From a virus: a stretch of 27,806 nt of DNA. The DNA is taken from positions 1 to 27,806 of the IMG/VR virus record IMGVR_UViG_3300031977_000925; one strand, given 5' to 3'. This document shows, piece by piece, positions 6,285 to 27,806 of the stretch. The position numbers and the translations under genes are program-made. The notes below the pieces were generated by a model. It worked only from the letters and a program-made list of their open reading frames with translations, was not told the origin of the DNA and ran no database searches. The number at the start of each line of letters is the position of its first letter. Position 1 is the stretch's first letter.

Positions 6285-6494
6285 ATGCCAAAAGGACAAA
6301 TGACCGATGAGCAAAGACAAAGGTGGAAGCCCTATGCTGAGCTTTTAAGTGGTAATATGACCGAGAAGCATTACAAGCTGATATGCGAATTACACGCTGA
6401 CCTATATGCTCATAAGTACCACGAACCTTGTACCTGTTCGCCTAAGCGTATTAAGGAATGGATATACCAAATAAACAAAATATATGCCTTATAA
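6285..6494 (+). CDS. Hypothetical 69-residue protein with CTCS motif
   Basis: Starts MPKGQMTDEQRQRWKPYAEL and has a helical middle (KHYKLICELHADLYAHKYH). EPCTCSPKRIKEWIYQINKIY follows near the end. The paired Cys after His-rich helices hint at a metal site, and the last 20 residues resemble a small DNA-binding helix. No family assigned. It starts one base after the preceding stop and overlaps the MjaI-like gene by 11 bases, so it could be a control or accessory element for that module, though this is speculation. Confidence 0.68.
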   Translation: MPKGQMTDEQRQRWKPYAELLSGNMTEKHYKLICELHADLYAHKYHEPCTCSPKRIKEWIYQINKIYAL

Positions 6495-7122
6495 GTATAA
6501 GCAACCATTAAGCGATGAGCTGTACCGAAAGCTAAACAAAGACAAGAGTGTCAATCATTTTTTTCAGACTAAGTATGTAGGTAAGTGCATGAAGCTCATA
6601 AGCGACTTTCATAAATACCACGAAAGCAAAACGCATAAGGATTGGGAACACTCGTATAAATGCTCAGTAGGGTACAAACAACTATCTTATGTAAGCCAAA
6701 GAATACACCTAAAGAATCAGTGGATACCATTAGAGCAGGTAAAGCAATATGTTTTCTATCGTGTGATAGGACAGACTTGGAACGGATACCAACAAGAGCT
6801 TAGCATAATAGACGAACTCAAAGCAGAGTTTACAAACATAGATATAGTTAAAACAGACTTTGAGAAAGACCACACCTATTGCATAGATGCTGAGATAATA
6901 AAAGACGAATACATTGTCTTAGGGATACAAATCAAACCTATCTCATACAAGATGATGAATACAGCTTACCAAAACAGAGCGAAGGCAAACCACAAAGAAA
7001 AGAACGATAACTACGCACGTAAGTATGCCCCCTACGTTTATGTTTACTACGATGATAACGGAATTGTAGATAAGCAGGAAACGATAAACAAGATAAATAC
7101 AATAATGCATTTAAATATATGA
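6484..7122 (+). CDS. MjaI-like type II restriction endonuclease, PD-(D/E)XK fold
   Basis: 212 residues. The diagnostic stretch is FYRVIGQTWNGYQQELSIID, then VKTDFEKDHTYCIDAEI, then YIVLGIQIKPISYK. The spacing of D in YCIDAE and the QIK motif is a PD-(D/E)XK nuclease centre with Q in place of D/E. The order GY..E, T..D..Y.ID.E, GIQIKP.SY resembles MjaI-family restriction enzymes; MjaI itself cuts CTAG. It overlaps the C5 methyltransferase by 4 bases (ATGA), the tight linkage expected of a restriction-modification pair. I found no CTAG in the phage sequence. The family call is from memory and the specificity is inference. Confidence 0.6.
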   Translation: MPYKYKQPLSDELYRKLNKDKSVNHFFQTKYVGKCMKLISDFHKYHESKTHKDWEHSYKCSVGYKQLSYVSQRIHLKNQWIPLEQVKQYVFYRVIGQTWNGYQQELSIIDELKAEFTNIDIVKTDFEKDHTYCIDAEIIKDEYIVLGIQIKPISYKMMNTAYQNRAKANHKEKNDNYARKYAPYVYVYYDDNGIVDKQETINKINTIMHLNI

Positions 7123-7781
7123 ATGTCTTAGAATTGTTTGCAGGTAGTAGATCAGTAGGCAAAGCAGCAGAATCTTTGGGCTACAATGTGTTCAGTAGTG
7201 ATATAAACGAGTTTGAGGGTATAGACTATGCAGTAGATATTTTAGAGTTTGATATTAACAAAGTACCATTCACGCCTGATATTATATGGGCTTCGCCCCC
7301 CTGTACTACTTATAGCATAGCAGCTATATCTCATCATAGACCACACAATAAACCATTATCTGATTTTGCAATAAAGAGTGATAATATGGTAAAAGAAACT
7401 TTATCTATAATAGAACACTATTGTAATTTGAATCCACGTTTGATTTTTTATATAGAAAACCCAAGAGGACTATTAAGAAAACAAAAGTTTATGATGGGTT
7501 TGCCACGCACGACTGTATGGTATTGTAAGTATGGCGATACACGAGCAAAACCAACTGATATATGGACTAACAATCTTTATAGCTTACTTAACTCTAAAGG
7601 ATGGAATCCAAGACCTGAATGTTTTAATGGTAACGAAAAATGCCATCACGATAAACAACCAAGAGGATACGCAGCTAAAAAAGCAGCAGGTGCTTTAGGT
7701 AAAGGAACTCAGGGGCTAAGAAACAATTATGAGAGAAGTAAGATACCTCACGAATTATGTATAGAAATTTTAAATAGTTAA
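7119..7781 (+). CDS. DNA C5-cytosine methyltransferase
   Basis: 220 residues, short for the family (usually 300-400), so the target-recognition region is reduced. Motif I is LELFAGSRSVGKAAESLG (4-21) with a motif II-like acidic end SSDIN. Motif IV is WASPPCTTYS with catalytic Cys62. The motif VI position reads ENPRG rather than the usual ENV. Motif X-like IPHELCIEIL lies near the end. It transfers methyl from S-adenosylmethionine to C5 of cytosine. It is translationally coupled to the MjaI-like nuclease, so it may protect the phage from it or from host enzymes. Target sequence unknown. Confidence 0.86.
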   Translation: MNVLELFAGSRSVGKAAESLGYNVFSSDINEFEGIDYAVDILEFDINKVPFTPDIIWASPPCTTYSIAAISHHRPHNKPLSDFAIKSDNMVKETLSIIEHYCNLNPRLIFYIENPRGLLRKQKFMMGLPRTTVWYCKYGDTRAKPTDIWTNNLYSLLNSKGWNPRPECFNGNEKCHHDKQPRGYAAKKAAGALGKGTQGLRNNYERSKIPHELCIEILNS

Positions 7782-10286: not shown

Positions 10287-10756
10287 CATACACAAAAGAT
10301 ATCAAGACACGATTAGAGAAGATCATCAAAGAACACTTAGGTATAGATATAACTGAGAACAATCGTAAGCACAAAGTAGTAAAGGGTAGGATGATGGCTT
10401 ATAGAATAATGCGTGAGCAGGAAGTGATCAAAAGGCATATCTCAGAATCGTTTAAGCAAAACCATGCAACTGTTCTCTATCACTTAGATCGGTTTACCCA
10501 TTACTACAAACACGATAAAGAATTTAAGACAGACTTTGACAAAGTGTATAACATATTTTACAATATAAAGGACGAGCCAATAGAGATGATTGAGAAGCGT
10601 ATAGAGAACCCTTTGTACTCACTCATAGACCAAGTACCTGAGGAACGCAGAAACGATGTTAAAATACGCTTAGAAGCTATGTTAGTAGGGTTTAATATAC
10701 AACCGAGAAACCAACAAGCGACCATATACGATGCAAACGCAATTACAGTAGAATGA
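10283..10756 (+). CDS. DnaA domain-IV-like DNA-binding protein
   Basis: 157 residues. KVVKGRMMAYRIMREQEVIK (31-50) and NHATVLYHLDRF (60-71) follow the DnaA C-terminal duplex-binding domain, where R-x-x-A-x-x-L/M-x-R-E precedes the I-G-x-x-F...(H/D)-x-TVL signature helix. The DnaA AAA+ domain is absent, so it binds DNA without the ATPase motor. Likely roles are origin recognition or repression of host initiation. It sits between the ParB-fold gene and a methyltransferase, with ATGA overlaps on both sides. Confidence 0.7.
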   Translation: MTYTKDIKTRLEKIIKEHLGIDITENNRKHKVVKGRMMAYRIMREQEVIKRHISESFKQNHATVLYHLDRFTHYYKHDKEFKTDFDKVYNIFYNIKDEPIEMIEKRIENPLYSLIDQVPEERRNDVKIRLEAMLVGFNIQPRNQQATIYDANAITVE

Positions 10757-11373
10757 TAACAAACGAGGACTGTATGGATTTAATGGCAAGGTATGAGGAT
10801 AACTACTTCGACCTTGCTATCGTTGATCCCCCTTATGGGATTGATGTAACAAAAATGACACTTGGGAATGGTAAGAAAAAAATAAATAGGGGTACAACAG
10901 ATTGGGATAGCAATATACCTGATGCTAATTATTTTAATGAGTTGTATAGGGTTAGTAAAAATCAAATAGTTTGGGGTGCTAATTATATGACTACATATTT
11001 ACCCCCAAGCATGGGTTGGGTGTTTTGGGATAAAGGCACAGGTTCAAATGATTTTAGCGATGGCGAACTTGCATACACAAGTTTTAAAAGAGCTTTGAGA
11101 AAATACAAAGTATCTTGGGTTGGTGCAAACGCTAACAATGGTACACCACGAATACACCCAACAGAGAAACCCATTCAACTTTACGAATGGTTGCTTATGA
11201 ATTACGCAAAAGAAAACGATAAGATACTCGATACTCATTTAGGTAGTGGCTCAATAGCAATAGCTTGTTATAATTTAGGATATGAGCTAACAGGGTGCGA
11301 ACTCGATAAAGACTACTACGAAGCTGCCATGAAGCGAATAGAACAACATAAACAACAACAAAGACTATTCTGA
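10753..11373 (+). CDS. N6-adenine/N4-cytosine DNA methyltransferase (beta class)
   Basis: 206 residues. The catalytic DPPY is at 25-28 (LAIVDPPYGID). The SAM-binding half comes later: HPTEKPIQLYEWLL, then KILDTHLGSGSIAIACYNLG and TGCELDKDYYEAA. Catalytic motif first and SAM motif last is the beta class of PF01555-type enzymes. The DPPY form favours N6-adenine. It is the phage's second methyltransferase and may shield DNA from host restriction. ATGA overlap with the preceding gene, and the stop overlaps the next ATG by one base. Confidence 0.88.
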   Translation: MITNEDCMDLMARYEDNYFDLAIVDPPYGIDVTKMTLGNGKKKINRGTTDWDSNIPDANYFNELYRVSKNQIVWGANYMTTYLPPSMGWVFWDKGTGSNDFSDGELAYTSFKRALRKYKVSWVGANANNGTPRIHPTEKPIQLYEWLLMNYAKENDKILDTHLGSGSIAIACYNLGYELTGCELDKDYYEAAMKRIEQHKQQQRLF

Positions 11374-26497: not shown

Positions 26498-27793
26498 ATG
26501 GCAAGTTTAGAAAATAAAAAAATAAAAGATACTTATCAGGGGCTGCTTAAAACCGATGACAATGCAGCTATTGATGGTGCTGTTGAAATCACAGATGGCG
26601 CAGGTAATGGCACAGGTGTTACTATCAGCAACGATGGGCAAGTTACTGCCACAGGTACTGTTTCGTTTGGGTCTTTAAAAGATACAGGCGAGGATATCAC
26701 AGTTACTAAGTTTGTTGACGAAGCAGATGGGATTGGTAATAACGATAACGACACTTCTGTCCCAACAAGTGCTGCTGTTAAGGACTACGTTGATACAAAT
26801 GTTACAGCTCAAGACTTAGACTTTCAAGGCGATACAGGTACAGGTGCAGTTGACTTAGATAGCCAATCTTTAGATATTGCAGGTGGTACAGGTATTGACA
26901 CAAGCGCAGTAGACCAAACACTAACTGTAAACATCGATAGTACAGTAGCTACCCTTACAGGCACTCAAACGCTTACTAATAAGTCTATTGACCTCACAGA
27001 TAATACTCTAAGTGGTACAACTGCTGAATTTAACACAGCTTTAAGTGATGATGACTTTGCCACGCTTGCAGGAACTGAAACACTTACTAACAAAACAGTA
27101 GACGCAGACAATAACACAGTCTCAAACTTAGAAGTAGACAACCTTAAAAGCGGTGTGTTAGACACTGACCTTACAAGCGTTTCTGCAAGTGATGACACCC
27201 TCGCATCTGCAAAGGCGATAAAAACCTATGTCGATTCCAACATTACCGCACAAGACTTAGACATTACAGACGGCACTACAACTTCTGCTGTCGACTTAGA
27301 CTCGCAGACATTAACTATTCAAGGTACTACAAACGAGGTCGAAGTAAGTCTTACAGACCAAACCTTTACAGTAGGTCTACCGACTTCTATAACTACAAAC
27401 GTAACAGGAAACTTGACAGGCAATGTAACGGGGAATGTAACAGGCGACGTAACAGGAAACGCAGACACAGCAAGTGCTTTAGAAACAGCTCGCACAATAT
27501 CACTAAGCGGGGACGTAGCGGGTTCGGTATCTTTTGATGGTACTGCAAATGCAGACATTACAGCTACAATACAAGCTAACTCTGTCGCTTTAGGTACAGA
27601 CACCACAGGAGACTATGTAGAGAATTTAGGCGTAGGTACAGGGGTTACAATAGGTAGTAACACAGGCGAAGGGTCAAGTCCTACAATTAGCGTAGACTAT
27701 GGCTCAACTGCAAACACCGCAGTACAAGGTAACACTTCGTTAACTATTCAGGGTACAGCAAATGAAATTGAAGTTACAGGTGGTGGTGTTACT
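26498..27793 (+). CDS. Tail fibre, N-terminal part (cut by contig end)
   Basis: 432 codons are readable before the adapter sequence. It begins MASLENKKIKDTYQGLLKTD, the short virion-attachment start usual for such fibres. Repeated modules follow: two copies of a VDxNxTAQDLD...VDLDSQ block (about 26790 and 27230), LTGTQTLTNKSID and LAGTETLTNKTVD repeats, and an NVTG repeat. No stop is reached. The frame and composition agree with the C-terminal piece at 2-1033, so I infer one gene of at least about 775 residues split by the assembly, with an unknown gap between the parts. Confidence 0.85.
27398..27460 (+). repeat. 12-bp tandem repeat encoding NVTG in the tail fibre
   Basis: Five consecutive 12-base units of the form AAYGTAACAGGN (second unit TTG for GTA; fifth GAC), encoding NVTG-NLTG-NVTG-NVTG-DVTG. 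Copies differ mainly at third positions. Such repeats build extended fibre shafts and change number easily. Confidence 0.75.
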
Positions 27794-27806
27794 AGATCGG
27801 AAGAGC
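27794..27806 (+). other. Illumina adapter stem at the contig end (artefact)
   Basis: The final 13 bases are AGATCGGAAGAGC, identical to the common start of Illumina TruSeq-type adapters. The phage reading frame makes sense up to 27793 and turns to charged nonsense in the adapter. These bases should be trimmed. Confidence 0.95.

Follow-up and report, generated by a model that had tools for sequence, protein, structure and literature searches.

A solitary MjaI-family nuclease gene in a group of aquatic phages is associated with the near-complete absence of CTAG and CCAG/CTGG from phages carrying it

The presence of a gene for a predicted restriction-type nuclease in an AT-rich phage whose DNA appeared devoid of the corresponding recognition site raises the question of whether the phage lacks these sites because of its own enzyme or because of restriction by its host. 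The locus lies in IMG/VR record IMGVR_UViG_3300031977_000925, of which positions 1 to 27,806 (hereafter, the window) were analyzed. The original prediction, made from the sequence alone, was that the product of an open reading frame at positions 6484-7122 resembles MjaI, which cuts CTAG, and that the phage is immune through absence of CTAG, with avoidance forced by host restriction as the named alternative. An exact count confirmed a single CTAG instance, at 27792-27795, where phage sequence meets AGATCGGAAGAGC, which appears to be an Illumina adapter and leaves the remnant CTAGATCGGAAGAGC at the record end (27792-27806). Dinucleotide shuffles yielded an expectation of 108 +/- 10 instances, and with the last 16 bases removed the count is 0 against about 110 expected. 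A scan of all tetranucleotides further revealed that CCAG and CTGG (about 115 expected together), CCGG (20 expected) and GGCC (31 expected) are also absent, which the original prediction had missed. The phage portion of the window (1-27790) hence contains no instance of CYAG on either strand (CTAG, CCAG or CTGG), against about 224 expected under a first-order Markov model.

To establish the identity of the protein, the 212-aa product of the plus-strand open reading frame at 6484-7122 was searched against Pfam, matching the RE_MjaI family (PF09568) with an E-value of 2e-8 and 34.7 bits, above the cut-off of 22.7. In a control search the same model matched Methanocaldococcus jannaschii and no other of the 14 control genomes, and the distant relative L036 (one of the contigs analyzed below) scored 35.0 bits. 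An AlphaFold2 model was obtained with high confidence (pLDDT 93.8, pTM 0.87), and the top structural matches of its C-terminal half (about residues 97-212) are mostly PD-(D/E)XK nucleases, including I-Bth0305I, Vsr, BsaWI and Hjc, although with modest Z values (7.8-8.4). No solved structure was matched by sequence, and Foldseek returned no match with an E-value below 0.001. Residues D135, Q149 and K151, encoded within 6886-6936 (plus strand; YCIDAE...GIQIKP), are invariant in 40 phage homologs and are shared by two plasmid homologs at 25-26% identity, and they lie on or beside predicted strands 136-140 and 143-152. These residues are thus inferred to constitute the active site (D135...Q149-x-K151). 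Homologs were detected in dozens of IMG/VR contigs, but protein searches with this nuclease and with the nuclease of plasmid pSC2 (see below) against GenBank phages returned no match. The only scan of genome contigs identified three distant bacterial homologs, in which CTAG is low where testable but CCAG/CTGG is not comparably depleted.

To determine whether site absence is associated with the gene, we scanned IMG/VR for relatives and assembled, together with two GenBank phages, a set of 284 non-redundant contigs (designated here by L numbers). In relatives, the nuclease gene lies between a sigma-like gene and a recombination exonuclease gene, and contigs spanning these flanks without the nuclease could hence be scored as lacking it at this locus. 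In 81 carrier contigs (897 kb, G+C about 28-48%) the observed/expected counts are 4/2963 for CTAG and 14/4208 for CCAG+CTGG, whereas in 74 non-carrier contigs (951 kb) they are 1020/3131 and 2592/4221. Other words do not follow the gene, with ratios in carriers and non-carriers, respectively, of 0.154 and 0.120 for CATG, 0.084 and 0.074 for CGCG, 0.44 and 0.475 for TCGA, 0.59 and 0.46 for GATC, and 0.28 and 0.40 for GGCC. Although the window taken alone would suggest CYRG as the motif, CCGG is rare in both sets (0.07 with and 0.02 without the gene) and is kept by several carriers, such as L323, L310, L312 and L298, and it was therefore excluded. Among all 136 tetranucleotide classes, only CTAG (log2 -8.2, about 300-fold) and CCAG/CTGG (log2 -7.5, about 180-fold) differ strongly between both sets, the next class being at -0.51 (1.4-fold). 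Furthermore, all pentamers holding the motif are at -6.7 or lower, a depletion of about 100-fold or more relative to non-carriers, while no pentamer without it is below -1.26. The word associated with the gene is therefore CYAG read on either strand, suggesting a specificity broader than that of MjaI itself.

INDEPENDENCE. Non-carriers whose proteins have a median identity of 94-98% to carriers often have 20-60% of the expected sites while the carrier has none. Among close pairs, L290 has 57 sites against 0 in L142 (87.6% nucleotide identity), and L292 has 39 against 0 in L138 (90.5%). Site density in non-carriers falls with closeness to the nearest carrier (rho = -0.66, n = 73), as expected if sites return after gene loss. 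On trees of three flanking genes, the nuclease gene was inferred to change state at least 20-24 times, and supported independent contrasts favored the association by 14.2 to 0 (helicase, p = 1e-4), 8.6 to 0 (exonuclease) and 8.4 to 0 (sigma). The controls tested, CATG, GATC and GGCC on the exonuclease tree, TCGA on the helicase tree and CCGG on the helicase and sigma trees, were not significant. Whole contigs presented the same pattern, with seven of eight carriers of 28-32 kb having 0 of about 210-290 expected sites and the eighth having five, all within about 700 bases of one end. These contigs are metagenomic, and the small clusters of CYAG sites seen in a few otherwise site-free carriers (L155:5156-5906, L145:3691-3914 and the first 700 bases of the parent contig of L027) were read as possible recent imports or assembly chimeras, although this is not proven.

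Eight of the 74 non-carriers have less than 10% of the expected sites. Two of these, L095 and L084, have a median protein identity of 97-99% to the carrier L037, in which a 16-bp direct repeat, AGATAAACAAGATATA, flanks the gene. Both keep one repeat and lack the gene, which is the product expected of a recent precise deletion, though the direction of the change is not proven. No copy of the gene was found elsewhere in the whole records searched, whereas the same search detected it in eight carriers. L261, L255 and L238 carry other small ORFs in the position of the nuclease and a few sites, which fits recent replacement, whereas L259 and L260, which are short, are unexplained and only presumed to fit. 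The 5' edge of this slot is marked by a small gene (6285-6494, plus strand, 69 aa) that overlaps the nuclease start and is conserved in relatives upstream of the nuclease or of other nuclease-like ORFs (138-142 aa, 155 aa and others), suggesting a swappable cassette site. Carriers of a 107-aa ORF (L092, L206, L212, L255, L259 and L261; e.g. L261:7211-7531), which in L255, L259 and L261 sits in the nuclease slot, have CTAG at 3/294 while CCAG/CTGG is normal in three of them. In addition, the seven carriers of a 132-aa ORF with apparent PD-(D/E)XK-like spacing (L200:2063-2458, and L074, L076, L185, L211, L215 and L262) have 0 of 132 expected GATC sites, including L262, where CTAG and CATG are not purged, pointing to a possible second nuclease of this kind. 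Conversely, no shared gene was found to explain seven contigs (L203, L214, L219, L221, L223, L224 and L231) with CCAG/CTGG at or near zero but normal CTAG.

Independent evidence was provided by the only plasmid matches to the family, in two Bacillota megaplasmids, pSC2 of Paenibacillus polymyxa (plus an identical-length second record) and one of Brevibacillus halotolerans, each with an MjaI-family gene and no neighboring methyltransferase annotated. In 105 kb and 100 kb sampled from them, CTAG is at 0/215 and 0/213, respectively, while CCAG/CTGG is normal. Related megaplasmids of P. thiaminolyticus and Aneurinibacillus, which gave no hit to the nuclease, have CTAG at 64/96 and 42/84 in 42 kb. 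The segment from Aneurinibacillus (445699-487657) also presents GATC at 0/151 and CCGG at 0/60, with normal CATG and CCAG/CTGG. The family members predicted to keep the classic CTAG specificity hence sit on replicons that have purged CTAG, whereas the phage branch has purged CYAG.

Taken together, these results strongly support the interpretation that the gene encodes a solitary restriction endonuclease of the MjaI family that cuts unmodified CYAG (CTAG and CCAG/CTGG, not CCGG), and that the phage is immune because selection by its own enzyme has removed every CYAG site from its roughly 31-kb genome, although cleavage activity and the direction of causation are inferred. Under this account, any site in the genome of the phage is a liability, the gene cannot easily enter a genome that has sites, and sites drift back when the gene is lost. 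The original prediction is thus supported, given that there are no genuine CTAG sites and that relatives lacking the gene are not equally depleted, but the avoided word is broader than the CTAG it proposed, and its suggestion that host or rival DNA is attacked is still an inference. Breakage of the host chromosome would stop host functions and free nucleotides, whereas co-infecting phages that still carry sites would be vulnerable. It is possible, but no more than that, that the purpose is exclusion of competing phages rather than breakdown of the host chromosome. Gene-less sister phages mostly keep tens to over a hundred sites in 28-32 kb contigs, and interference by a phage endonuclease is known for gp210 of PhiPA3 (PMC11620839), but chlorovirus restriction enzymes degrade host DNA and were found not responsible for mutual exclusion (PMC7019647).

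Avoidance forced by host restriction, with a nuclease unrelated to the missing sites, is an unlikely alternative. Phages do avoid host sites, and this may explain the depletion of GGCC, CGCG, CATG and CCGG, which does not follow the gene; in the window GGCC is at 0/31 and CGCG at 2/22, depletions shared by many relatives whatever their nuclease, and L095 and L084 lack both sites and gene. However, CYAG absence follows the phage gene through at least 20 inferred changes on trees, including between near-identical phages, and the association would also have to hold by coincidence for the megaplasmids, in which the missing word is CTAG, the MjaI site. CTAG rarity alone would have been weak evidence, since this word is under-represented in about half of prokaryotic genomes (PMC4687349), and the case therefore rests on CCAG/CTGG and on the megaplasmids. 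Similarly doubtful is the possibility that the nuclease is one half of a restriction-modification pair in which avoidance only backs up leaky methylation. A C5-cytosine methyltransferase gene (7119-7781, plus strand; PF00145/phrog_757) overlaps the nuclease stop, and an N6/N4 (beta-type) methyltransferase gene (PF01555) is encoded at 10753-11373 (plus strand); M.MjaI is a beta-type 4mC enzyme (PMC5867850). Although the specificity of both methyltransferases is unknown, tblastn searches detected a homolog of the former in only a minority of nuclease-bearing contigs, the latter varies between relatives and occurs with and without the nuclease, and working methylation would remove the need for total site loss. 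In a close relative, a Mom-family DNA modification protein was also identified (L033:4506-5201), between the ParB-like gene and the 10283-family gene.

Restriction enzymes are normally kept safe by a methyltransferase, and here the genome itself appears to act as the antidote. The protein belongs to a known family, and the new elements are the inferred CYAG specificity, read from comparative genomics alone, the absence of an antidote and protection by complete purging of sites, no description of which was found in an incomplete search of open-access papers. The pattern also provides a molecular trace of gene loss as sites return and a one-way barrier to gene exchange between carriers and non-carriers, and it indicates that missing words in a phage can reflect its own weapons and not only the defenses of its host. 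More tentatively, solitary restriction enzymes kept without a methyltransferase, made safe by erasing their site from the whole genome and held in a swappable genomic slot, could represent a general phage weapon strategy.

With the MjaI family the phage protein shares the profile match and, with plasmid MjaI-family proteins, a conserved RVxGxTWNG...D-x-E...QIKP core, and CTAG is among the purged words, but its predicted specificity is wider, it is phage-borne and no companion CTAG methyltransferase was identified. Contrary to an orthodox Type II restriction-modification system, no methyltransferase is consistently linked to the gene in carriers. Chlorovirus restriction endonucleases such as CviAII and CviJI (PMC7019647) are likewise virus-encoded and site-specific with short sites, and are used to degrade host DNA, but they always lie next to a companion methyltransferase, whereas here protection is by absence of sites. 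The homing endonuclease gp210 of PhiPA3 (PMC11620839) harms a co-infecting phage lacking protection, but it targets one specific sequence and belongs to an intron, while the site inferred here is a 4-mer purged genome-wide. Lastly, phage avoidance of host restriction sites (cited in PMC4687349) also involves under-representation of short recognition words in phage DNA, but in this case the avoided word follows a gene in the phage itself, and avoidance is essentially total.
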